Source: a virus
Length of the DNA stretch: 42,400 nt
Direction: 5' to 3' (one strand)
Virus record (IMG/VR): IMGVR_UViG_3300036045_000029
Location: 1-42,400 of that record
The notes beneath the pieces are model-generated. The model did not search any database and had not been told where the DNA came from. It worked only from the letters and a program-made list of their open reading frames with translations. Position numbers and translations under genes: made by a program. Shown in pieces: positions 7,402-39,100 of this stretch (position 1 is its first letter; each line of letters opens with the position of its first letter).

Positions 7402-9381
7402 TCAACTGAGGAACGGGTCGGGCTCCTCTTCCTCGCCGGGCAGGTTGTTCTCGCCCTCGCCGGCAGCGAGGAGATTCGCCTCCTGCCGCACAGCTCCGAA
7501 CGCACCGCTCGGGTCTAGACCCGGCTGCGCGCCGTTCAAGCTGCCGGGGTCCTGCACCGGCTGCTGCGGCTCCGCGCCGGGCTGCGGCGGAGGCATGCCC
7601 GGCATCGGCGGCTGCTGCGGACTCTGCACGAGAATCTTGTCCGTGTCGCGGAAGCCGAACACGTCGCGGAGCAGCCGCTGAATCAGCGGCATCAGGTTCA
7701 CACGCACGCCGAACTGCATCAGCGCCTGCATCGTCTGCGGATTCCCCAGCACCTGCAACGCCTGCATGATTTGCTGCCCGCGAACCTGCACGTTCATCAA
7801 CTGCGTGGAGGCGTTCCATCGGAAGCGATAGTCGCCGTACAGCGACATCGGATTGATGGTCTTCTTCGCCGCCAGCGCGAACGGACCCCCTGCGGAGATG
7901 ACCACCGGGTCCTTCGCGAAGACTTGGTCGAGACCCCAGAAGCGCTTCATCGTCGGCTGCCACGTGTCGGTCTCCTGCGACCGCACGATTTGCTGGAGCG
8001 GCGTCTCCGCGTTCTTCTGCGCAGTGCCGATGCCGGTCGCCGTGCGGAACGCGCGGCCCGGAGCGCTTCCACCTTGCAGCACCGGAGGAGCCATGCCGAA
8101 GTCGTTCAGCCAGCTCTGCGTCTGCGTCATCAGCACGGCGCTGCTCTGAATCATCTCCTGCGGCGGGCGAAACTCCTTCAACGCGTTGTTGATGTCCGTC
8201 GCGAGCACCTGGAAGCCGGGCTCGAATTCGGTCACCGCGGTCATCAGCACGTTCGGGTTGCTCACGATGCCCGGGTTCAGAACCCAAGTCGCGATGTCCA
8301 TCGCCTGATTCACTTGGTCGTTCAGCAGGAGCTGAAGAGGATAGATGTCCTCGACCGTGCCGCTGCCCCAGAGCCGCCCGACGATTTGCCCGAGTCGTCC
8401 GAGCACGTACGGGTGACACGCGCCCGGGCTCGTGTAGTGCGCTTCCACCACGCGCAGAACCTTCCCATCCTTCGTCACTGTGATGCAGAAGGGGCGCGGG
8501 TTTTTCTCCGCCTCCTCTTCCTTCGCATCCGGGTCGAATTCGCAGAAGACGTGCGAGCAATCCACGTACTTGACCGTGGTCTGCTCCGCCTGCGGCGGGC
8601 TGATGCCCTGCGACGCGAGGCGAGCTTGGTCCGCCATCTCCTTCTCAGGGTTCACCGCGGAGCCAGCGGCTTCACACTCTGACTTCACGTACACGCCCTG
8701 CGCCGCCTTCCGCATCAGGTCGCGCTTCGTGCTCGTGAAGTCCTCGAAGACGCCGTCAGCGTCCTCCAAGCTGTTCGCCGTCGCCGGCCACGCATAGAAG
8801 TTCTCCACCGGGATGGGCGTGAAGCACGGACCCTCGTAGCCCACCGCCAGCTCCGGCTTCTTCAGCAAGCCGTACAGCTCGTCTTCCTTCTCCACCGCCT
8901 TCTTCCGCTTCACGGTCGAGTAGTTCTTCGACTTCCAGTGAATGCGCGCGGGGGAATTCCCCTTCATAAAGAGCTGCCGGTAGTACGCCTCGGCGTGCTG
9001 GCGAATCTTCGCGTCCTCAGCGCGGTTCTGCTCCAGCACCTGAACGTCAGCGGCCATCGCGCCGTATTCGTCGCGCTCGGGCTCCACGGCAAAGAATTCG
9101 TCGCCGGGGAAGGTTGCTGCGACGGTCTGCGCGACCAGCGTCTCCACGACCTTCTTCGTCGCCGGTATGTAGATGTTGGACTTGCCCTGGTAGGCTTGAA
9201 ACTCGTGCTCCTTGCTCCATGCCTTGTGGTAGCGCGCCCAGTCAAAGTTCAACTGTGAGCGGCTTTGCCGGCACTCATCCATGAGCGGGATGATTTCCTT
9301 CTTCACGCGAGCGCGAACTTCTTCGCTCTCAGCGTAGTTCTTCACCGCCTTCTGCTGGTCGCCGTAGGCCATACCCAGCAC
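7402..9381 (-). CDS. Portal protein
   Basis: A 659-residue protein. The N-terminal helix-rich region with LDMDECR-type and NFDWARYHKAWSKEHEFQA segments, the stretch SNIYIPATKKVVETLVAQTV, and the later PGACHPYVLGRLGQIVGRLWGSG fit the N4/P22-type portal family, in which a '...Y.P.T...ve...a' region precedes the stem and crown. The C-terminus is Pro/Gln/Gly-rich (PPMPGMPPPQPGAEPQQPV), a common disordered portal tail. It starts at GTG 9381 with GAGG four bases upstream; ATG 9372 is an alternative. Position downstream of the large terminase supports the call. Confidence 0.85.
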   Translation of the reverse strand: MLGMAYGDQQKAVKNYAESEEVRARVKKEIIPLMDECRQSRSQLNFDWARYHKAWSKEHEFQAYQGKSNIYIPATKKVVETLVAQTVAATFPGDEFFAVEPERDEYGAMAADVQVLEQNRAEDAKIRQHAEAYYRQLFMKGNSPARIHWKSKNYSTVKRKKAVEKEDELYGLLKKPELAVGYEGPCFTPIPVENFYAWPATANSLEDADGVFEDFTSTKRDLMRKAAQGVYVKSECEAAGSAVNPEKEMADQARLASQGISPPQAEQTTVKYVDCSHVFCEFDPDAKEEEAEKNPRPFCITVTKDGKVLRVVEAHYTSPGACHPYVLGRLGQIVGRLWGSGTVEDIYPLQLLLNDQVNQAMDIATWVLNPGIVSNPNVLMTAVTEFEPGFQVLATDINNALKEFRPPQEMIQSSAVLMTQTQSWLNDFGMAPPVLQGGSAPGRAFRTATGIGTAQKNAETPLQQIVRSQETDTWQPTMKRFWGLDQVFAKDPVVISAGGPFALAAKKTINPMSLYGDYRFRWNASTQLMNVQVRGQQIMQALQVLGNPQTMQALMQFGVRVNLMPLIQRLLRDVFGFRDTDKILVQSPQQPPMPGMPPPQPGAEPQQPVQDPGSLNGAQPGLDPSGAFGAVRQEANLLAAGEGENNLPGEEEEPDPFLS

Positions 9382-12538: not shown

Positions 12539-12744
12539 CAGTTCACTCCTCGTGCAGCTCTCATCGGGAACAGCGGCTTCGGGCGGTGCGCGAAAGCGCA
12601 CGCGCAGACCGGACACGGAATCTTCACCGTGCGAATCTTGAAGGTCTGTGGCGTGATGTGCGTCGGCACGAAGAGGTCAGGGAGCTGTGGCTCGTACTCG
12701 ACCTTCGTCACAAGCCGCAGGTCACTACAGAACGAGCAGTGCAT
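12538..12744 (-). CDS. 68-residue zinc-ribbon protein
   Basis: Starts at ATG 12744 directly after GGAGGAG and overlaps the preceding stop (TAATG); its own stop overlaps the next start (ATGA). Two CxxC pairs, CSFC near the N-terminus and CPVC in the C-terminal half, make a four-Cys zinc ribbon. Tight coupling on both sides supports it as a real gene even though a longer frame extends upstream out of context. It may act as a small nucleic-acid-binding or host-takeover protein; this is not shown. Confidence 0.75.
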   Translation of the reverse strand: MHCSFCSDLRLVTKVEYEPQLPDLFVPTHITPQTFKIRTVKIPCPVCACAFAHRPKPLFPMRAARGVN

Positions 12745-13055
12745 TACTCCTCCGCGTCTTCTAGGTCGTCCTTCGCCGGGCGGAATTCCTCGGGCTGTTT
12801 GTCGCGCATCGTCTTCAGGATGGCGCGTGCTCCCTTGCTCGCGAGCCACGCTTCCATCGGGACGCCGCCCTCCGTGATGCGCTCGATTTCGTACGCCATC
12901 GGCAGCCCCGGGAATTCCTCCCCGGACAGCCACCGCGAGAGGCGGCTCATGCTCTTGTCTCCGAGCCGCCGCTGAAACTCGCGGCTCGTCATCCCAACGC
13001 GGTTCAGCCACACCGCCAACGCCGAGTTGTGCTTCGTGCCCTGTGCACGTCCCAT
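12744..13055 (-). CDS. HTH (Cro/CI-like) DNA-binding protein
   Basis: A 103-residue protein. Residues about 10-45 (ALAVWLNRVGMTSREFQRRL followed by SMSRLSRWLSGEEFPGLPMA) read as a helix-turn-helix of the XRE type: a first helix, 'GMTSREFQRRLG', then a recognition helix 'SRLSRWLSGE'. The tail is acidic. It sits near the start of the leftward operon, next to the control region with palindromes, so it is a candidate regulator of the divergent promoters. No integrase is present, so a lysogeny repressor role is not supported. Confidence 0.7.
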   Translation of the reverse strand: MGRAQGTKHNSALAVWLNRVGMTSREFQRRLGDKSMSRLSRWLSGEEFPGLPMAYEIERITEGGVPMEAWLASKGARAILKTMRDKQPEEFRPAKDDLEDAEE

Positions 13056-14132: not shown

Positions 14133-14203
14133 GCACCTTGGCACGGGAAGCTATGTCATCATGTTTTGCAGTTTTCACTCGCACTCCGAACACGTCTGCG
14201 CAC

Positions 14204-14232
14204 TTGCGTGTGTCATGTGGCGCTGGTATTTG
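14204..14232 (+). promoter_or_regulatory. Candidate rightward promoter
   Basis: TTGCGT (14204-14209), 17-base spacer, TATTTG (14227-14232). Only partial matches to sigma70 consensus, but it is the best candidate before the first rightward gene, and the leader hairpin follows at the expected place. Confidence 0.4.
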
Positions 14233-14261
14233 TTCTGCACTAGCGCTGCGGCAGCAAGCGC

Positions 14262-14280
14262 GCTGGGCACGGTGCCCAGC
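14262..14280 (+). promoter_or_regulatory. Leader hairpin, copy A
   Basis: GCTGGGCA-CGG-TGCCCAGC: an 8-bp perfect stem with a 3-base loop, 29 bases upstream of the ATG at 14310 and followed by GCATCGGAGAGAC, which contains the ribosome-binding site. Copies B, C and D share the design. Confidence 0.7.
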
Positions 14281-14309
14281 GGAGCCTTGCGCATCGGAGA
14301 GACCTGGAA

Positions 14310-15575
14310 ATGACTGCCGCACTTCGCGCCGTTCCCCCGCCGCCCGCCGCTGTGGCAGCGGCTCTCACTCGTCAGCCGTTCGAATTCGACGCCGCTCTGA
14401 CGCATGAAGGCCCCGCCGTCTACGTCCCCGCTGGGGACTTCAGCGAGGTCATGCGGCAGTGGTCGGAGCGCATCGAGGAACAGCAGCTCCGCGACGTGCC
14501 CATCAGCTCGCTGCACTCTCTCAGCGTCGACCACCGCGATGGCGCATTGGTCCGTGGGCAGGGCGGAGCCTGCTACACGCCGCATGCGTGGTCTCAACTC
14601 GTCTCGCTGATGCGTGCGCAGGGCGCTCCCGCGGGTGTCGCCAACGCCCTGCGTTGGCTCTCACCGCTCACGCGTCATCATGGCTGGGCGGACGTGGTCC
14701 GCACCTCGCAGCGCCCGCGCACTGAGGAAGGAATCCTCCGCATGTTCCGCGCTCGCACTCCAAACGGCAGCATGAACCCCGCCATCCGCGCGGTCGTCAG
14801 CGGTCGCCACTCGCTGAAACACTTCGATGACGCTGCTGTGCTCAAAGTGATTTCAGAGCTTGACGAGACACCGGTCCGCGCTCGCGTGTCTCGCGGCTGG
14901 GATGTGACTCACGGCAGCTTCGACTTGGACGCGGGCAACGCTGACGTTGCGCTCTCGTTCTACCTCCAGAACAGCGAAACGGGATGCGCCTCGCTTTCAT
15001 TCTCCGCGGCGCTCCGCCTCGCTGTGCTCGACGCGACCGTGGTCATGCCCAGCGGCGAGCGGTACGAGCGCATCGTGCGTCTCGCCGCCGAGAACAGTGC
15101 GACCACTCGCCGCCGTCACACGCTGCCGCGCTACAGCTCCAGCAGCGGCAACCGCATCAGCGAGGAACGGCGCGGCGAGATTGCGCAGCAACGCATCGCG
15201 GCAGACATCGAGGTCGCGCTCGCTGGCTCGCGCGTGCTCGCTGAGCGGTGGGAGAAAGCACGCGGCGAGGTGTTCGCGGCGCTCGTCCCTCTGTGCAAGG
15301 CGACTGTGGCCGATGACTTCGCGGTGCGCGTGCTCGCTGACGCGCTCCAGGAAGCGGGCGTTCCCGCGGGCGATGAACCGGAGCTGGTCAAGGCGCTCGC
15401 CGCGGTCATCGCGGATGACGCTCGCCTCCGCTCGCTGCCGCACGGGAGCGCCGCGCACTTCGCCGCAGCGCTCGCCATCGTGGCGGCGGACACGCGCGAG
15501 AAACGGAGCTGGGAAGACACGCTCCGTATTCAGCGCATGTCCGGTGAAGTCCTGATGAACGGCTGGCCGAAGTGA
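14310..15575 (+). CDS. DUF932-like early protein
   Basis: A 421-residue protein, the first gene of the rightward unit. The segment IRAVVSGRHSLKHFDDAAVL (about residues 155-174) recalls the 'R-A-x-x-S-x-R-Y...D' motif of DUF932 (phage/plasmid-like) proteins, and WDVTHGSFDLD further on fits the same family layout. The C-terminal 150 residues are helical with many Ala/Arg. DUF932 proteins are common early or accessory genes on phages and plasmids; their biochemical role is not established. Its ribosome-binding site GGAGAG lies eight bases from the ATG within a conserved leader. The family assignment is tentative; that it is a real gene is near certain. Confidence 0.7.
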   Translation: MTAALRAVPPPPAAVAAALTRQPFEFDAALTHEGPAVYVPAGDFSEVMRQWSERIEEQQLRDVPISSLHSLSVDHRDGALVRGQGGACYTPHAWSQLVSLMRAQGAPAGVANALRWLSPLTRHHGWADVVRTSQRPRTEEGILRMFRARTPNGSMNPAIRAVVSGRHSLKHFDDAAVLKVISELDETPVRARVSRGWDVTHGSFDLDAGNADVALSFYLQNSETGCASLSFSAALRLAVLDATVVMPSGERYERIVRLAAENSATTRRRHTLPRYSSSSGNRISEERRGEIAQQRIAADIEVALAGSRVLAERWEKARGEVFAALVPLCKATVADDFAVRVLADALQEAGVPAGDEPELVKALAAVIADDARLRSLPHGSAAHFAAALAIVAADTREKRSWEDTLRIQRMSGEVLMNGWPK

Positions 15576-15583
15576 GCTGACAG

Positions 15584-15620
15584 CAGGGTGAGCGGCGAGC
15601 TACCTCGCCGCTTCGCCCTG
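15584..15620 (+). promoter_or_regulatory. Long intergenic hairpin after the DUF932-like gene
   Basis: A stem of about 16 bp with one bulged base and one G-U pair (15584-15599 with 15604-15620), loop CTAC. It begins eight bases after the stop of the upstream gene and is followed at once by leader hairpin B. There is no T-tract, so it may stabilise or process RNA rather than terminate. Confidence 0.6.
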
Positions 15621-15623
15621 CCC

Positions 15624-15642
15624 GCTGGTCATGGTGACCAGC
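15624..15642 (+). promoter_or_regulatory. Leader hairpin, copy B
   Basis: GCTGGTCA-TGG-TGACCAGC: an 8-bp perfect stem with a 3-base loop. Compared with copy A, the sixth pair is T-A instead of G-C, a compensatory change. GCATCGGAGAGAC follows, identical in 13 bases to copy A, ahead of ATG 15664. Confidence 0.7.
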
Positions 15643-15663
15643 GGTGCGGCATCGGAGAGACGA

Positions 15664-15927
15664 ATGACGAATCAGGTTTTTGTGGTGGTGACGTACCGCG
15701 ACGGGCATCAGCACGTCATGCCGCTGTACCCTGCGGAGCTGACGCTCCAGAGCGCGCTCGACCTCGCGCGGCAGGCGGCGGAGGAACACGGCAAGCGGGG
15801 CTCACACGCGGTCGACGGCGACCGCATCGACTTCGCCGCAGTGGAAGCGGCTGACTCGCTGATGGCGGTGAATATCGCCAGCCACGTGGCGAAGCGCCGC
15901 CTCGTTCACGGGAGCTTCACGCTGTGA
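15664..15927 (+). CDS. Small early protein, hypothetical
   Basis: An 87-residue protein (MTNQVFVVVTYRDGHQHVMP...). The start at 15664 follows GGAGAG by four bases and stands after the leader hairpin; an in-frame upstream ATG lies inside that hairpin and is unlikely. Mixed alpha/beta pattern with an N-terminal beta strand pair. Its end overlaps the next gene by four bases. No family recognised. Confidence 0.75.
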   Translation: MTNQVFVVVTYRDGHQHVMPLYPAELTLQSALDLARQAAEEHGKRGSHAVDGDRIDFAAVEAADSLMAVNIASHVAKRRLVHGSFTL

Positions 15928-16157
15928 ACGCCTACCGGTACGTGCTCAAGCAGCGCCAGAAAGACGGCAGCGTGTGGACTTCACCGGAAGTGTTCGAGGG
16001 TGACTATCACGCCGTCAAGCAAGCCGTGGTCGCGGGGTTCATCTCGGGTGAGGCGCGCTGGGCGGAGACCAGCAGCGACTCTCTCAACCCGGGGTTCTTT
16101 CTCTACGGGTTGAACCGCTTCGGCAAGCCCGTCAGCAGTGACCCTGACTTCGACTGA
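15924..16157 (+). CDS. Small early protein, hypothetical
   Basis: A 77-residue protein starting at GTG 15924 with GGGAG upstream, overlapping the previous stop (GTGA). It is aromatic- and charge-rich (YRYVLKQRQKDGSVWTSPE) with a helical middle; it looks like a small globular protein. Function unknown. Confidence 0.7.
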   Translation: MNAYRYVLKQRQKDGSVWTSPEVFEGDYHAVKQAVVAGFISGEARWAETSSDSLNPGFFLYGLNRFGKPVSSDPDFD

Positions 16158-16213
16158 CCTTTCTCTCCGAACCCACGGCGCGGCTGGGCGATTCGCCGCG
16201 CACTTTGTGAGGG

Positions 16214-16229
16214 TGCGAGCGCGCTCGCA
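16214..16229. promoter_or_regulatory. 16-base perfect palindrome beside a promoter
   Basis: TGCGAGCGCGCTCGCA, perfectly self-complementary, ending two bases before the -35 box at 16232. The placement is that of an operator or activator site. Confidence 0.6.
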
Positions 16230-16231
16230 TC

Positions 16232-16261
16232 TTGACATGGTGGTGGACGAACAGCTAAGAG
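16232..16261 (+). promoter_or_regulatory. Candidate early promoter with shared 16-base element
   Basis: TTGACA (16232-16237), a perfect -35 match, then T and GGTGGTGGACGAACAG (16239-16254), then CTAAGAG as a weak -10. The 16-base element recurs behind TTGACG at 18136. The gene start follows at 16312 behind leader hairpin C. Confidence 0.6.
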
Positions 16262-16273
16262 CTGCACTGCCAC

Positions 16274-16292
16274 GTTGGGCATGTTGTCCAGC
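16274..16292 (+). promoter_or_regulatory. Leader hairpin, copy C
   Basis: GTTGGGCA-TGT-TGTCCAGC: an 8-bp stem with two G-U pairs and a 3-base loop, 19 bases upstream of ATG 16312 and followed by CGGAGATAGAC, similar to the region after copies A and B. Confidence 0.6.
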
Positions 16293-16311
16293 GCTGAACG
16301 GAGATAGACAC

Positions 16312-16599
16312 ATGCAAGCAATTACCGTGAAGTACATCCCGCCGACGAACACCCGCGGCTCCCGCTGGCGTGCGAAGTGCGACGCGGGGAGCGTCACGCT
16401 CGCGCAGGACTACGCGGTCGAGCCGTCCGCAAACGCGCGGCTCGTAGCGCTGGCGCTGGCGCGCAAACTCGGTTGGCGCGGGGCTTTCTTCGAGGGCTCG
16501 CTCCCGCGAAGCAACTCCGAAGCATACGTGTACGTCTGCGTTCCGCGCGGAGCGGATGGCAGCACCTCGCCGCGCGCGGCTTTCACGGTGGAGAGCTGA
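16312..16599 (+). CDS. Conserved small mobile-element protein
   Basis: A 95-residue protein. The opening QAITVKYIPPTNTRGSRWRA, then AGSVTLAQDYAVE and LALARKLGW, follows a pattern seen in many small proteins from plasmids and phages ('QAI.TKYLGPTN.RGSR.KA.A.AG..T...D......N...AA..LA.KLGW'). Their role is not established. The start at 16312 follows a conserved leader; GGAG lies 11 bases upstream. It forms a pair with the next gene, which belongs to the same accessory gene set. Confidence 0.8.
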   Translation: MQAITVKYIPPTNTRGSRWRAKCDAGSVTLAQDYAVEPSANARLVALALARKLGWRGAFFEGSLPRSNSEAYVYVCVPRGADGSTSPRAAFTVES

Positions 16600-16602
16600 C
16601 CC

Positions 16603-17088
16603 ATGCCTACCTTCGACCGGTTCGACATCTGCGAAGCGTATGCCTGCCTCGAATGGGATTGGAACAGTGGCGGGTGGGTACGCGAGCGTCCGAGCAACGC
16701 TCGACGGCGCGAAGCGACTTCCGTGCAGCTCTCGCGGTTGGGCTTCAAGCCCCGCCCGAACCTCAGCACGGAGACGCTCACCGAAAACGGGCGGGAGATT
16801 TACGACGCGCTGTGCGAGCGGTACGGCTTCAAGGAACCGAACCGCAAGTGGCGCACGGAGACGGTAACCCTGCCCGCTTACCTCGCCAGCGCCCTCATCA
16901 ACGGAGACGTGAGCGGCTTGGAAGACGACGACATGAAGTGGCTGAAGGCGGCAGAGGACTACGTGGCTCCCGGGCGCATCGTGAGCTGCGACGGGGAGAG
17001 CTACTTCAGCCACACGTGCGACCTCTGGGGTCACCCCGCGTGCGACGTGCTGGAGTACACCGTGATGTACGACGGGGAGGAGAGCTAA
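16603..17088 (+). CDS. Conserved accessory protein (DUF6926-like)
   Basis: A 161-residue protein. The N-terminal FDRFDICEAYACLEWDWNSG and FKPRPNLSTETLTENGREIY match a plasmid/phage family with 'FD..EAy' and 'f.P.p....l..n...iY..L..r'. The C-terminal half has the separate motif TLPAYLASALINGDVSGLED ('LP.w...aLinGD.sGL.D'), often found alone or fused in these elements. So this is likely a two-part accessory protein. Function is unknown; such genes often sit in anti-defence or adaptation clusters of mobile elements, which is only a hint here. Confidence 0.75.
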   Translation: MPTFDRFDICEAYACLEWDWNSGGWVRERPSNARRREATSVQLSRLGFKPRPNLSTETLTENGREIYDALCERYGFKEPNRKWRTETVTLPAYLASALINGDVSGLEDDDMKWLKAAEDYVAPGRIVSCDGESYFSHTCDLWGHPACDVLEYTVMYDGEES

Positions 17089-17091
17089 GCC

Positions 17092-17397
17092 ATGCGCCGC
17101 AACTGCAACAACTGGCTAGGCAAGGCGTGCGACTCGTTCGACCGCACCGGAAAGCATGATGAGCTGTGCTGCAACGCGAGGGGCGAGAAGAAATTCGAGC
17201 CGACGTGGCTGACGCCGCAGCGTGCTCGCAAAATCTGGGAGAACCGCTCCAGCGCTGGCGACTTCGTGGGCGTCGTGTCGCGCGAAGAAGACGAGGAGGT
17301 GTCCCGGGTGTGGCAGACCATGCCCGGTGACACGAGCTGGGTTGATGCGCTGCTGAGCATCAGCCGTGGAGAACACCCGAGGAAGGAGAAGCCCTAA
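17092..17397 (+). CDS. Cys-containing early protein, hypothetical
   Basis: A 101-residue protein with several Cys in the N-terminal third (NCNNWLGKACDSF..., LCCNARGEKKF), possibly a metal site. The rest is helical and acidic. Its stop overlaps the next start (TAATG). No family recognised. Confidence 0.7.
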   Translation: MRRNCNNWLGKACDSFDRTGKHDELCCNARGEKKFEPTWLTPQRARKIWENRSSAGDFVGVVSREEDEEVSRVWQTMPGDTSWVDALLSISRGEHPRKEKP

Positions 17398-17957
17398 TGA
17401 GCACCCCGAAGATTCCGAACCTGCGAGAGATGTTCGAGGCGACGTGCCGCACGATGAACGTCACGATTCCCCAGCGATACCGAATCGTCCAGCAGGGTCG
17501 TCGCGTTTACGGTGAATTCCAGTGGCGCACTGAGCTAGACCTGAAGTGGGAGAAGCGCGCTTACGGGTACGGTGAGCACGTCTGGTTCAACTACAACGGC
17601 AAGACCGCAGAGGAGGGAGTGCAGGAGCTGGTGCAGCGCTACGCAAAAAAGGCGCGCGCTCGCGCCAAGGCTGACGCCGCAGCGGCTGAGCGCTGTGCCG
17701 CAGCGCAGCGTGACCACGCCGCACGTATCGAGGGGCTGAGCGCAGAGCTGCGTGCGCTGAACCTCAAGGAGCTGCCGCGTTCCGTGGAGCTGCGAGACGG
17801 TGAAGGGCAGGTCGTGCTGCGCCTCTGGATTGAGCGCTTCATGGGCGAGGAAGTCGAGCTGTTCGTGCAGACAAAGGTCAAGCTCCGTACGCTCGTGGAG
17901 ATGACCGAACACGGCGTGGTGAACATCAACTTCGACGGCGTGCAGGAGCTGAAGTGA
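17397..17957 (+). CDS. Early protein with central coiled coil, hypothetical
   Basis: A 186-residue protein. The N-terminal 60 residues look like a small mixed fold (YRIVQQGRRVYGEFQWRTEL). Residues about 75-125 are an Ala/Arg-rich coiled coil. The C-terminus is beta-like. The GTGATG at its end couples it to the lipoprotein gene that follows. Function unknown. Confidence 0.72.
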   Translation: MSTPKIPNLREMFEATCRTMNVTIPQRYRIVQQGRRVYGEFQWRTELDLKWEKRAYGYGEHVWFNYNGKTAEEGVQELVQRYAKKARARAKADAAAAERCAAAQRDHAARIEGLSAELRALNLKELPRSVELRDGEGQVVLRLWIERFMGEEVELFVQTKVKLRTLVEMTEHGVVNINFDGVQELK

Positions 17958-18139
17958 TGCGCGCGCTCGTCCTGATGCTGGTGGTGGCGTGTGGCGGGGC
18001 GAACAGCTCCGCCGCACTCGACGCGGGCACGCTGAGCTGGGCGTGCGAGTACCCGCGCTGCTGTGAACGTCGCAGCTCCGACAACGCGTGCATCGACTTC
18101 GGGTGCTGCGATGACGACGGGTGGCGATTCGCCCCTTGA
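17957..18139 (+). CDS. Cys-rich early lipoprotein
   Basis: A 60-residue protein with a short hydrophobic signal ending in a lipobox-like LVVAC (Cys 13). After it come seven further Cys (CEYPRCCERR..., ACIDFGCCDDDGW), so the mature part is small and probably disulphide-bonded in the periplasm. ATG 17957 is coupled to the upstream stop; GTG-ATG choices overlap. Early phage lipoproteins can block receptors (for example Llp of T5), which is a plausible but unproven role here. A lipoprotein implies a Gram-negative envelope or a Gram-positive membrane target; the former fits the rest of the window. Confidence 0.7.
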   Translation: MRALVLMLVVACGGANSSAALDAGTLSWACEYPRCCERRSSDNACIDFGCCDDDGWRFAP

Positions 18140-18164
18140 CGGGTGGTGGACGAACAGGCAGAGT
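18136..18164 (+). promoter_or_regulatory. Candidate early promoter, second copy of the 16-base element
   Basis: TTGACG (18136-18141) followed directly by GGTGGTGGACGAACAG (18142-18157) and GCAGAGT. It overlaps the 3' end of the lipoprotein gene by four bases, and the HNH gene starts 11 bases downstream (18175). The -10 is weak as in the first copy, which suggests a phage-specific activator or sigma contact rather than a plain sigma70 promoter. Confidence 0.55.
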
Positions 18165-18174
18165 GAGCACACCG

Positions 18175-18561
18175 ATGACGCGAGAGCAGAAACCGTACAG
18201 CGAGCGAACGACGCCGGAGCAGCGCAGGGAGTACCGGCAGCGCCGGATGCGCCGCGCGAAGAAGCTGCACCGGGAGCTGATTCGGCAGCTCTGTCTCGAC
18301 CGGTTCAAGGCGAAGAAGTCGAAGACGGCGAAGCCGCACTGCGCAATCTGCGGGAAGACGCACCGCCTTTCTGAGCTGGAGGTCGACCACGAACGCGGCA
18401 AGCGCTGGCGCGCGAAGCAGTTCCGGTATGACGCCCGCGTCGACCGCTACGTGGAGGAGTACAAGCGGGGAGTGAAGCTCCGCCCTGCGTGCCGTCCGTG
18501 CAATCGGATGGACGGCGTGGCGAGGCGGAAGGAAGGGCGCGTGAGCGCCGCAGAGGATTGA
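18175..18561 (+). CDS. HNH endonuclease
   Basis: A 128-residue protein starting at ATG 18175. The N-terminal half is very basic. The HNH core shows CAICGKTHRLSELEVDHERG (Cys-x2-Cys, then the Asp-His catalytic pair) and LRPACRPCNRMDG (Cys-x2-Cys-Asn), which together form the beta-beta-alpha-metal nuclease with a structural zinc. Length is typical of a stand-alone phage HNH. It lies in the early cluster, not next to the terminase, so a homing-type or host-DNA role is more likely than packaging. It has its own promoter candidate. Confidence 0.85.
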   Translation: MTREQKPYSERTTPEQRREYRQRRMRRAKKLHRELIRQLCLDRFKAKKSKTAKPHCAICGKTHRLSELEVDHERGKRWRAKQFRYDARVDRYVEEYKRGVKLRPACRPCNRMDGVARRKEGRVSAAED

Positions 18562-18573
18562 AGGTCTACAAGG

Positions 18574-18717
18574 CGGGTGGCCGGCAATGACCGGTAGCTG
18601 CGAAAGCAGGCTCGAACCCCGTACTAGCGCCATGCCCGGTAAGGCGTGAACCCGGGCGCATCTTTCAGCAGCACCCGGTGGGCATGGTGCCAACCGGCAA
18701 ACGTGGTCAGGAGACCA
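18574..18717 (+). ncRNA. Candidate structured RNA or long structured leader
   Basis: A gene-free stretch between the HNH gene and 18722. It can fold into a closing stem (18574-18579 with 18672-18677), hairpin 1 (18580-18584 with 18591-18595), hairpin 2 with a GAAA tetraloop (18598-18601 with 18606-18609, extended by AG/CT around a bulged G), hairpin 3 (18634-18639 with 18652-18657), then leader hairpin D, and a small hairpin TGGTC-AGGA-GACCA that presents the Shine-Dalgarno in its loop. It does not fit a tRNA: there is no consistent acceptor stem and the T-arm pairs badly. It could be an independent RNA, a riboswitch-like leader or chance structure in GC-rich DNA. Confidence 0.4.
18675..18697 (+). 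promoter_or_regulatory. Leader hairpin, copy D
   Basis: CCGGTGGGCA-TGG-TGCCAACCGG: a 10-position stem with one G-A mismatch and a 3-base loop, sharing the GGCA-TGG-TGCC core with copies A to C and lying upstream of the gene at 18722. Confidence 0.5.
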
Positions 18718-18721
18718 GCAG

Positions 18722-19360
18722 ATGAGCAACCCCAAGAACGAGAAGCCGTCCAAGACTGTCACCGCCCGCGCCGCAGGTCAGAAGCCGACCAACTACGTCG
18801 GCTCGGCGCTCACGAAGCAGGAGCCCGAGCGGAAGCTCACTCGCGCGCAGCAGATGCAGGCCGCGAGCGACGCGGTCATCAAGGCGATGGAGAACTTCGC
18901 TTCGCTGCTGAGCGGCGAGCACGTCACGCTCCCGATGATGCAGGCCGGCTACTACATCATCGACAAGCTGTGGAAGAAGCCCATCGACGACATGCGCAAG
19001 ATGGTGAACACCGCGCTGAAGGAGCACATGCGCGAGCACGAGGTCGAGCGCGACGGGCAGCGCGTGAAGGAGCCGCTAACGGAGCTGGTGCTCGACTACG
19101 GCGGCGAGACGTACAAGGCGGAGCGCGAAGTGCAGCGCCACAAGATGGGCAACGCGCCCGGCATGGCGGACGTGAAGCAGCTCGCGGAGAAGCTCGGCGT
19201 CGACTGGCTCAAGCTCTGCAACCCGGTCACCACGTACGAGTACAACGAGCAGATGACCATCGCCATCATCAAGGAGAAGATGCCCAAGGCGGACCCGGCC
19301 AAGGTCATCGACGAGGCGCGGCTCCAGAAGTCCGAGAGCCTCAGCATCGAGAAGGTCTGA
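18722..19360 (+). CDS. Early protein, hypothetical
   Basis: A 212-residue, mostly helical, charged protein. Residues 1-45 are Lys/Pro/Thr-rich and flexible. A segment with ELVLDYGGETYKAEREVQRH may form a small beta-alpha unit, and the rest is amphipathic helix. It starts at ATG 18722 with AGGAG in a hairpin loop upstream. The long, specifically structured leader suggests regulated expression. No family recognised. Confidence 0.78.
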   Translation: MSNPKNEKPSKTVTARAAGQKPTNYVGSALTKQEPERKLTRAQQMQAASDAVIKAMENFASLLSGEHVTLPMMQAGYYIIDKLWKKPIDDMRKMVNTALKEHMREHEVERDGQRVKEPLTELVLDYGGETYKAEREVQRHKMGNAPGMADVKQLAEKLGVDWLKLCNPVTTYEYNEQMTIAIIKEKMPKADPAKVIDEARLQKSESLSIEKV

Positions 19361-19372
19361 GGAGACGCCACC

Positions 19373-19576
19373 ATGACGACCAAGAAGCGCGCTCCCTTCG
19401 GGCTGGGGTTCAACGGTCACGCCTATAGCTGCGACTGCGTTCGCTTGAAGCTCCCGACCTCCGCCGCCCAGCCGGTGTTCGTCCGCGCCCACTACAAGCG
19501 GAGCCCGAATCACCTCCGCAAGTACAGCCGCACGCGCACGATGCTGCGCGCGACGCTGAAGCGGTTCGTGTCGTGA
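19373..19576 (+). CDS. Small basic protein, hypothetical
   Basis: A 67-residue basic protein with AYSCDCVRLKL in the middle and an Arg/Lys-rich C-terminal half. GAGGAG lies nine bases before ATG 19373. The last codons overlap the start of a tiny membrane protein (GTGA). Its charge suggests nucleic-acid binding, without further evidence. Confidence 0.65.
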   Translation: MTTKKRAPFGLGFNGHAYSCDCVRLKLPTSAAQPVFVRAHYKRSPNHLRKYSRTRTMLRATLKRFVS

Positions 19577-26749: not shown

Positions 26750-27664
26750 ATGCCGAAAGGTGAAGCGAAGGTCATCGAGTACAACCCGGGCCAGAAGCCC
26801 ACGCAGTCACTCCCCGTCGATGATGGCGCGTACGCTCTCGCGCTGAAGTCGAAGGGGAGGCCGGGGCCGAAGGGGTGGCGGAAGAAGTCCCCCAAGAGCT
26901 ACCCGAACCGGATGCTCGTGTTCAAGATTCTGAACACGGAGGACGAAATCACCGGGAACGAGAAGGAGGTCGTGGAATTCGCCTCCCTGTCGCCGGGCTT
27001 CTCGTTGCAGAAAATCGCCTTCCTCGCGTACGCCGCCGGCTACCCGAAGAAGCTGAAGCTGGAGAGCGGCCCGAAGAAGAAGCCGAACGACCCGACCGTG
27101 ATGCGCAACATGAAGGCGGTCGACGAGCTGCTCCAGTACATCGAGGACAACGAGGTCGAGCTGCGCGCGTACCTCGCGGGCGACTCGTACAACGGGGAAG
27201 ACCGGAACAAGGTCGCGAAGTGGCTCCCGCCCGACGCCGAGCTGGACTCCTCCAGCGACGACGCCGAGGAGACGGAGGACGAGGAGACGGAGGAGGCGGA
27301 GGGCGAGGAGAGCGATGACGAGGGCGGCGACGAGTCCGAGGACGAGGGCTCGGAGGACGAGTCCGAGGAGGAGTCCGAGGAGGCTTCCGAAGACGAAGAA
27401 GCCGAGGAGGAGTCCGAGGACGAGGACGAGGAGGCGGAGGAAGTCGACGACGAGAGCGAGGAGACCGAGGAGTCGGACGAGGCGGAGGAAGCCGAGGAGT
27501 CCGAGCCCGAGGAGACCGAGGAGGAGCCGGAGGAGAAGCCGGCCAAGTCCAAGAAGGGCTCCGAGCTGGACTCGCCCGCCGTGAAGAAGGCGAAAGCGAA
27601 GCAGGCCGCGGAGAAGGCCAAGGCGGCTGCCAAGAAGGGCAGCAAGAAGAAGTCGAAGAAGTAG
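26750..27664 (+). CDS. ssDNA-binding-like protein with very long acidic tail
   Basis: A 304-residue protein. Residues 1-165 form the likely OB-like core: YALALKSKGRPGPKGWRKKS, MLVFKILNTEDEI, FASLSPGFSLQKIAFLAYAAGY and YIEDNEVELRAYLAGDSYNG, the pattern of phage SSB-like/DUF669-type proteins. Residues about 165-262 are almost only Glu, Asp and Ser. The last 40 are Lys/Ala-rich. An acidic tail is normal in SSBs, where it contacts replication partners, but it is usually 10-30 residues; this one is about three to ten times longer and followed by a basic tail. AAAGG precedes ATG 26750. Position after the Sak4-like gene supports the call. Confidence 0.7.
   Translation: MPKGEAKVIEYNPGQKPTQSLPVDDGAYALALKSKGRPGPKGWRKKSPKSYPNRMLVFKILNTEDEITGNEKEVVEFASLSPGFSLQKIAFLAYAAGYPKKLKLESGPKKKPNDPTVMRNMKAVDELLQYIEDNEVELRAYLAGDSYNGEDRNKVAKWLPPDAELDSSSDDAEETEDEETEEAEGEESDDEGGDESEDEGSEDESEEESEEASEDEEAEEESEDEDEEAEEVDDESEETEESDEAEEAEESEPEETEEEPEEKPAKSKKGSELDSPAVKKAKAKQAAEKAKAAAKKGSKKKSKK
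27244..27545 (+). repeat. Purine-rich low-complexity tract
   Basis: About 300 bases in which the plus strand is mainly G and A (GAG, GAC, GAA, TCC-GAG patterns), encoding the acidic tail of the SSB-like protein. Such polypurine tracts can form unusual DNA structures and are prone to slippage, so length variation between relatives would be expected. Confidence 0.75.
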
Positions 27665-36172: not shown

Positions 36173-39100
36173 TTACTTGAAGCGGTCCCGGAGCTGCTTC
36201 ATTCGCTCAGGAATCGCCTCCAGGACGCGCGAGCGCTCATCGGGGTCGTTGATGCCCCGGACCCGCTTCCGAGCGTCCAGCAGGCCAGCTCGTTCGCCAC
36301 GGAGCTGCTTTTGAGCCCCTCTCTGAGTCCGCTCTCCCACCTTCTCGATGCCGATGGGGGAGAAGGTAGTCAGCAGCGCTTCCCCGAGTCCCTGGGGCTC
36401 CTCGGTCGGGCGCAGCGGTTGACCGAGGTCGAGCTGAGCCTTCCGGGCGACCGTGCGGAACTGGCGCATCAGCGCCGGCTCCATGAACTGCGCCACCCCG
36501 CTGGCAGCCTTCCAGCCTTCTTGCCCGGGTAGCAGCGGCGGCTCGTATTCCTGGGGCGTCACGCCCAAACTTGCGAGCTGGTCGTTCACCCAGGGCTCCA
36601 TGCTGCCGCTCTGCACCATGCCCTGCACGATGGAAGCAGCCACGCGCTGCGGAATCGACATCTGCGGCGCTCCGCGGAGGAACAGCGCGAACGGGTTCAA
36701 GCCGTCGAAGCTGACGGCGTAGACCAGCCGCCCATCCTTCCCTCGAACCGGGAGCCAGTCGTGGAGCCCCTGCCGGTCGCGCCAGCTCCCCTTCAGCGCG
36801 CGCTCGCCGGCAGCAACGTCGGAGTCAGTGATGCCGTAGAGCTGCCGAGCCATGTACGCGGCGACCATCGGAGCCGCCATCCACGCCGCGGTGCGCATCA
36901 GCGGACCAAGGTCGCCCTTCATGCTGTCCGCGAGGATGTTCTTCGCGACGCGCAGATTGTCGACGTGCCACCCGATGAACGGCGCGAGCCCCAGCGAGCT
37001 GCGGCTCAGCTCGCGGAAGATGGGAGCAGCGCCGGCACCAGTCGCGAAGTAGCGGTTCACGATGTGCGAAGCGTGCGAGCGCGCCTGCTGCGGCGAGAGC
37101 CCCAGCCGCTGCCGGCCCGCTTCCACGTGGTGCATGTACGCCGCGAGCCGCGCTGCGGAGTCGAATAGCTCGTACGTCTTCCCGAGCTTGAGCTGTCCCT
37201 TCTGCATCATCCGCATCGCGGAGTCCCAGAAGCCCATCAGCCCATCAGGCTTCGAGCGCAGCACGTTCTCCGCGATGGCTCGCGCCTCCGAGCCGCCGAG
37301 GTCGGTGCCGCGACCTGGACGCACCGCTCCGTCTTCGAGCGCCATCTGAAGCCACTCGTGACCCTGCGCGAGCGAAGCGCTCAGCCGCTTCTGCCCCGCG
37401 AGAATCGAGCGGAACGCCTTCGCCATCAGCACCGGCTGCCGCCAGACGGGGACGCCGCTCGCGGTCAGGTACAGCCCGTTCGAGATGATGTTGCGTGCCC
37501 ACGTCACCGGGCTCGTGAGCACCTTCGCCGTCGCGAACCAGCCAGTGACCTTGTGAGCAAAGTCGCGCGCGAAGTTCTCGACCAGCGGTGCCGGCGCGTC
37601 GAGCATCGACTGCCGCAGAGCCGGGTGAACGAACTTCCCCGCCAGCTCTCCGAACAGACGCTTGTTCTGCGCAGGGCTCATCTGCTCGTTCCACAGCGGA
37701 CGCTCGTCCATGCCCGGCACCCACTGCTGCGCCCAGACTTTCCCTTCGAGGTCGGGAGCGAGCAGTGCTCGCGTGCGCATCATCAGGTGGTACATCGACG
37801 ACATCTGCGACGCGGTCTCCGCGACCACGAAGGCCGGGTCGTTCACCACGCCCAGCAGCGCGTGCAGCGGCGGAGGCAGCGTGCGCGCCTTCACGAGACC
37901 CGCGTCGCGGAAAGCTCCGAGCATCTGTTGCACGTTCTGGAAGCCCTCGCCCTCCGCTGCCGTCTTCAGCACTGCGCGCACGCGAGCGTTTGCCTGCACC
38001 GGGTCCATGCCCATCGACTCCGCGATGAACTTCGCGGCGCGGACGATGGCGTCTTCGGGTGGCTTCCAGCTCCGGCGCGCGTAGAACGCCTGATAGCTGC
38101 GGTGCAGGTGCAGCAGCCCCTTCTTCAGATTCTGCGAGATGGTCGCCAGCTCCTGCGGTCCGAAGTACCCGCCCTTCGCCAGCTCTACGAGCTGCGCCTG
38201 CTGCTCGCGGTGCATCTGGTCGAACAGCGCACGGAATTCAGCCGGTAGCTTGTTGAGGTCTGCGACCGTCGCCTTTCGGTCACGGAGCTGCGTGATGACC
38301 TTCTGCACCGTCGCGCGGTCGACGCTCGGCAGCTTCTCGATGACCCGCTGAAGCGCGGGGTAGAGCCGCTGCATCTGGAAGTCACCGATGGCGCGCGAGG
38401 CGTTCACGCTGCGCACCGCCTGCCCCAGCAGCTCGTCACCGCGAAACTCCGGCAACGAGAACTGCTTCAGGAAGCGCGCGCGGAGTCCCGTGTCCGCAGC
38501 GAGCAGCTTCTGCGACTGTGCTGCGAGCGCGTGGAACATCTCGTCCAGGTCAGTCGGCTGGAGCGGAGCCGAGACGGGCGGGCCGCTCTGCTGCGTGGCG
38601 GCAGGGCGCGGAGGCTCGCCGCTCCCGCCCTGAATCTCGGGCTTCAGCCGGTGCGACGCTACCCAGGTCATCTCCGGGTTCTGCTGCGAGCGCGGCAGCA
38701 GCGAGTCGCGCGGCACGTACTTCGTCGCCGTCTTCTCCAGCTCGTCCTCTCCGCTCAGCCACGCGATGTTCGCGTCGACAGACGGCTCGGGCGGAGCACC
38801 GCCCAAGCTCCGCTCTGCCGCCTTCGGAGAAGCAGCAGCCGTGCCTTGCACGTCGCGCGGGACCTCCGTGCGCAGCGGCTTCGTCAGCTCGCGGCTCGCG
38901 TTGAACTTCCGGTGCTCGCCGGCCAGCACGAGCCCAATCTCCTTCGCGGTCTTCGCGCCCTGGGGATTCTCGTTCAGCCACTTCATCATCGCAGACGGGT
39001 CACCACGGTCCGCCGCAGCAGCCGCTTCGTAGAAGCCGCTCTGGCGCAGGTAGTCCGCTTCGCGCGGGTCGTCGACCACGGTCGGGCGCTCAGCGTTCAG

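Follow-up and report, generated by a model that had tools for sequence, protein, structure and literature searches.

The window analysed here, 42,400 bases of an IMG/VR phage record, has a phage-type gene order. Its minus-strand block carries the terminase, a gene in the portal position and the capsid, and its plus-strand block carries gene A, small genes, an HNH gene, gene D, an ATPase, an SNF2-like helicase and a family-A DNA polymerase. Within its first 5 kb, the latter block has four hairpins (A to D) that lie in the gaps 5′ of the start codons of gene A (14310–15575, 421 aa), gene B (15664–15927, 87 aa, no family match), gene C (16312–16599, 95 aa, PHROG 3199) and gene D (18722–19360, 212 aa), all on the plus strand. 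Going by gene position only, we presume that these hairpin-led genes are early. In another part of the window, a 304-aa gene (26750–27664) contains a long run of acidic codons (Glu/Asp) at 27240–27560.

Four hairpins upstream of start codons

All four hairpins are on the plus strand. Hairpin A (14261–14281, CGCTGGGC-ACGGT-GCCCAGCG) places the first base of its loop 41 nt 5′ of the gene A ATG, and the corresponding distance is 33 nt for hairpin B (15622–15644, CCGCTGGTC-ATGGT-GACCAGCGG; ATG at 15664), 31 nt for hairpin C (16273–16293, CGTTGGGC-ATGTT-GTCCAGCG; ATG at 16312) and 38 nt for hairpin D (18675–18697, CCGGTGGGC-ATGGT-GCCAACCGG; ATG at 18722). Copies A and B are perfect, as the initial annotation had described them, while C contains two G-U pairs and D one internal G-A mismatch. 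The starts given there (14262, 15624, 16274 and 18677) are off by at most 2 nt, the paired changes reported at stem pairs 2 and 6 are correct, and the 13 bases said to be common to A and B can be read directly as the ribosome-binding stretch GCATCGGAGAGAC at 14291–14303 and 15649–15661 (+). The proposed 8-bp stem with a 3-base loop needs to be redrawn: a loop of 3 nt is obtained if the A-T closing pair is counted, but the stems then have 9–10 bp, and the relative G002 (see below) shows that the conserved unit is better described as AYGKY, a 5-nt loop on a closing C-G pair. Likewise, the distance to the start codon, put at about 20–30 bases, is 18–28 nt when measured from the 3′ end of the hairpin.

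The four hairpins stand far above what shuffled sequences yield. The pattern GGCATGGTGNCC, with one mismatch allowed, matched hairpins A–D only, all on the plus strand of the window, with no match on the minus strand and none for the reversed-pattern control. A search for the core C-AYGKY-G with a stem score of at least 7 returned four sites on the plus strand of the window and none on the minus strand, compared with a mean of 0.135 and a maximum of 1 in dinucleotide shuffles of the whole window, so chance, the control by which the initial annotation would have abandoned the element, does not match it. The early region's largest group of hairpins with similar cores has four members, a size reached by 0 of 300 shuffles.

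A strong intergenic hairpin without a T run (15583–15621, +) abuts hairpin B on its 5′ side and possibly marks the end of the gene A unit; G002 has a counterpart at about 36730–36755, after gene A and before the leader hairpin, again without a T run. Hairpins A–D themselves were considered as intrinsic terminators and rejected, as none is among the terminator-like sites and a T run after the stem is absent.

Other repeated words were observed around these genes. The 12-mer GGTGGTGGACGA is a phage-specific site, present in the window at 16239, 18142, 20927 and 29321, always on the plus strand (4 copies versus 0.02 expected). Two copies, those 5′ of gene C and of the HNH gene, are preceded by TTGAC and have GGTGGTGGACGAACAG in common; the other two are in coding sequence. 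At the matching HNH and ATPase places G002 has TAGTGGACGA. CTAGNGC-like words before A, D and the first G002 hairpin lie at differing distances, and a fixed upstream promoter motif was dropped as a candidate.

Distribution among related phages

One contig, G001, is nearly identical to the window and has the same four hairpins, and therefore contributes no independent information. Across the scanned viral and other genomes, one independent hairpin-bearing phage was found beyond the window phage, namely G002 (IMGVR 3300049176_000105), which is collinear with the window and shares 74% identity in terminase (TerL), 71% in capsid, 72% in polymerase, 55% in gene A and 52% in gene D. Three hairpins, all on the plus strand, were found in the plus-strand block of G002. 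The first (G2_1, TAGGTAGCGC-ATGGC-GCACTACCTG), with a C-A mismatch, is 5′ of gene A with a small gene between. The second (CCCGCCGTGC-ATGGC-GCACGGCGGG) comes right after gene A, like hairpin B, and the gene that follows it is unrelated to gene B; the leader at this place has thus been retained though the gene behind it was exchanged. The third (G2_3, CTCGCAGTGC-ATGGC-GCACTGCGAG) precedes the gene D orthologue, like hairpin D, with an unrelated stem.

Two further phages, G005 and MW202477, are collinear with the window at a greater distance, with about 50% identity in terminase. In G004/G005 and MW202477 the element was found by neither the core search nor a covariance model. G003 is a 7.7-kb fragment with the terminase, from which the hairpin region is absent, and a DNA-level search of a phage collection with the window gave no match. 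Over the relatives, the covariance model returned the seven copies, their own reverse strands and one further moderate match (L046, 12474–12498, minus strand, 26.9 bits), which we attributed to chance, since the sequence behind it offered no assignable gene start preceded by a ribosome-binding site and the core was not seen a second time there. The search of related phages that the initial annotation had suggested found new copies in G002 and none in G005 or MW202477, and the element that it called phage-specific appears to be specific to a clade, having been found in G002, the window phage and the nearly identical G001 only.

The relatives also have repeats of their own. In the hairpin-less MW202477 (L051), a leader ACCTCTCANNNTGGAGTA is repeated directly before four genes (7082, 8154, 11089 and 12115), and in it CTCT could base-pair with GGAG across the ribosome-binding site. 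G005 (L043) repeats the leader word GACCAACCTCA at 8599 and 10709, before two genes, one of which is the gene A relative, and G002 (L008) has an array of short GGGCTAGGGCTT-type repeats before the ATPase gene (14680–14800).

A conserved loop on a changing stem

When the seven copies from the two phages are aligned on the loop without gaps, C-AYGKY-G is common to all and the arms are otherwise little alike. The loops seen are ACGGT, ATGGT, ATGTT and ATGGC. Pairing is kept in 93.7% of the cells of the named structure, six of its nine stem pairs show two-sided changes, and only pairs 4-22 and 10-16 are invariant. The arms differ even between orthologous positions (hairpin D and G2_3), where the loop is kept. 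The covariation score is 0.593 versus 0.158 for shuffled alignments, with 0 of 500 shuffles matching it, and none of the slid pairing registers comes near the score of the named structure. Relatedness can inflate such shuffle tests, and with two phages part of the stem changes is shared by descent within a phage; the pair-count and pair-type measures are still clear of every shuffle. Together, the seven copies from two divergent phages support the earlier proposal that selection acts on structure.

The stems are GC-rich, with energies of −11 to −22 kcal/mol. In longer context, the minimum-energy prediction leaves out hairpin D, and for most leaders shuffles are at least as stable. Rfam gave no match at gathering score in the window and, in 14200–18760, matches no better than chance. 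A conserved loop combined with a freely changing paired stem suggests that an RNA switch or handle of an undescribed type controls the genes behind it.

RNA element or DNA dyad

The initial annotation had left both an RNA structure and a DNA dyad for a dimer in play. In all seven copies the loop is 31–41 nt from the start codon, with an SD-like purine run 3′ of the hairpin, and the spacing from the preceding stop codon is variable, from 0 (G2_3) to 115 nt. The orientation is always sense (four plus and no minus copies in the window, three plus copies in G002). The arms contain no conserved half-site and their pairs change together, and the conserved centre, i.e., the loop, is asymmetric. Wobble pairs alone are not decisive, as copy C, with its two G-U pairs, favours the sense strand (−11.1 kcal/mol as sense RNA versus −2.3 for the other strand), whereas the C-A mismatch of G2_1 is a G-U on the other strand, where this copy pairs slightly better. 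The lack of a half-site, the asymmetric loop, the sense orientation and the narrow spacing narrow the choice and tip it towards a leader hairpin in RNA and away from a DNA dyad, as far as sequence can tell.

Candidate partner proteins

The HTH_3-like protein at 12744–13055, which had been put forward as the binding partner, has relatives in G002 (51%) and G005 (37%). As it is conserved in G005, where the element was not found, it does not track the hairpins, which leaves its proposed role as partner unsupported. A 67-aa basic protein whose gene immediately follows gene D (19373–19576, +) has a counterpart in G002, the other hairpin-bearing phage, and was not detected by tblastn and one motif in G005 or MW202477. 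By phyletic pattern only, it is a speculative candidate partner. Its predicted structure is of low confidence (pLDDT 49), with a C-terminal helix only.

Proposed mechanism and alternatives

We see even chances that the hairpins are a clade-specific RNA operator, read mainly via its loop by an RNA-binding protein and acting on translation initiation of the cassettes. Each cassette would carry in its 5′ leader an RNA hairpin whose stem of 8–10 pairs, free in sequence, displays the loop C-AYGKY-G at its conserved distance from the start codon and is adjoined on the 3′ side by the SD-like purine run. An RNA-binding protein, probably encoded by the phage, would recognise the loop and, by obstructing or assisting the ribosome around the initiation site, set the translation (or decay) of all these cassettes jointly. 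From these sequence features we infer that the hairpins are transcribed, are bound by a protein and affect translation, and may in this way control early genes. It is tempting to go further, to a multi-gene RNA regulon in which one loop-reading protein, possibly that at 19373–19576, would steer several unrelated early cassettes via portable leader hairpins, possibly with a leader peptide that begins at the loop AUG and stops at the gene start; we regard this extended version as doubtful.

Somewhat less probable again, and in our view unlikely, is that the hairpins are mRNA 5′ stabilisers or insulators, which would shield transcripts or keep upstream sequence apart from the ribosome-binding site and would need no dedicated binding protein. 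The GC-rich stems, their energies, their free sequence and the presence of one hairpin per cassette start would all suit such a role, but mere stability needs no A-Y-G-K-Y loop kept across two divergent phages. To our knowledge, AYGKY is not among the known extra-stable loops.

Coupling through a leader peptide appears improbable. Here the loop AUG (ACG-GUG in copy A) would open a short frame that stops at the main start, and its translation would unfold the hairpin and feed the main gene. All six out-of-frame loop frames stop between −8 and +11 of the main start, twice as an overlapping ATGA, and the seventh (copy B) is in frame with the main gene, whereas among control out-of-frame frames of the same leaders one of eight stops there. 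However, this observation is post hoc, the distance window having been picked after the data were seen, and among ordinary genes here 46% of upstream points at these distances behave in the same way, mostly through real gene overlaps. There is also no consistent ribosome-binding site 5′ of the loop AUG, copy A has ACG, and the frames of A and B differ despite their common GCATCGGAGAGAC.

We give little credence to a DNA operator on which a dimeric repressor, e.g., the HTH protein, would bind the dyad. The gene for this HTH_3-like protein lies nearby and A and B are perfect dyads, yet the absence of a half-site, the asymmetric, single-oriented centre and the retention of the HTH protein in G005, where no dyad was found, speak against it. 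A boxB/nut-type antitermination site, read on nascent RNA and carrying the polymerase through the following block, seems very improbable as well. Hairpins with a 5-nt loop do start several units, with a variable stem and a conserved loop, but the loop is not GNRNA-like, no boxA lies near the hairpins (6 boxA sites were found in the window versus 15.8 expected), a strong intergenic hairpin precedes rather than follows both copy B and its G002 counterpart, and all copies hold the narrow spacing to the start codon.

The least credible of these alternatives is an N4-type DNA hairpin promoter, which a virion RNA polymerase would recognise after its extrusion from supercoiled DNA. N4 promoters share a conserved GC-rich centre within variable inverted repeats before early blocks (PMC4496689, PMC3715699), and no sigma-70-like site was found here. 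Against this, the invariant central G is on the non-template strand, so that the template centre is C in seven of seven copies where N4 needs a template purine; the stems are longer and nothing is conserved at a fixed distance 3′ of them. In the large ORFs, searches with PHROGs, Pfam, PDB and motif B gave no RNA polymerase match, and a PF00940 search was empty, with its control equally silent. The large virion protein is, moreover, conserved in relatives without hairpins.

An RNA operator of the kind we propose would be of wider interest. A shared structured operator before several genes is rare in phages outside the well-studied ones, and a short motif with clean paired changes here offers a directly testable candidate for such a post-transcriptional regulon. 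If a phage protein reads the loop, the two would form a new orthogonal RNA-protein pair; the swapped gene behind a retained leader would then illustrate how phages bring new genes under a control circuit already in place.

Comparison with known systems

The open papers covered under a few word combinations contained no description of such an element. In the MS2-type coat-protein operators of RNA phages, a protein reads a loop whose stem can largely vary in sequence; that operator includes a bulged A and extends over the start codon, whereas the hairpins here end 18–28 nt before the start. The lambdoid boxB (nut) elements resemble the present hairpins in their five-base loop, short stem and location in early leaders, and differ in their GNRNA-like loop, a stem sequence common to the copies and a boxA partner. 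Closest in layout are the N4 virion RNA polymerase promoters, which occur as three copies before early genes, with a conserved centre and a stem that may vary if paired (PMC4496689). Their defining features, i.e., a DNA hairpin of 5–7 bp, a template-strand purine and a giant virion polymerase, do not apply or were not found here. In the proposed mode of action, the T4 gene 43 operator is closest and sets a precedent: in T4 and RB69 a phage protein recognises the conserved loop of a hairpin that lies about 40 nt 5′ of the start codon (PMC3014915). That operator serves one autoregulated gene, has the loop UAAC and extends to the ribosome-binding site, whereas the element described here is shared by several unrelated genes and displays the loop AYGKY.
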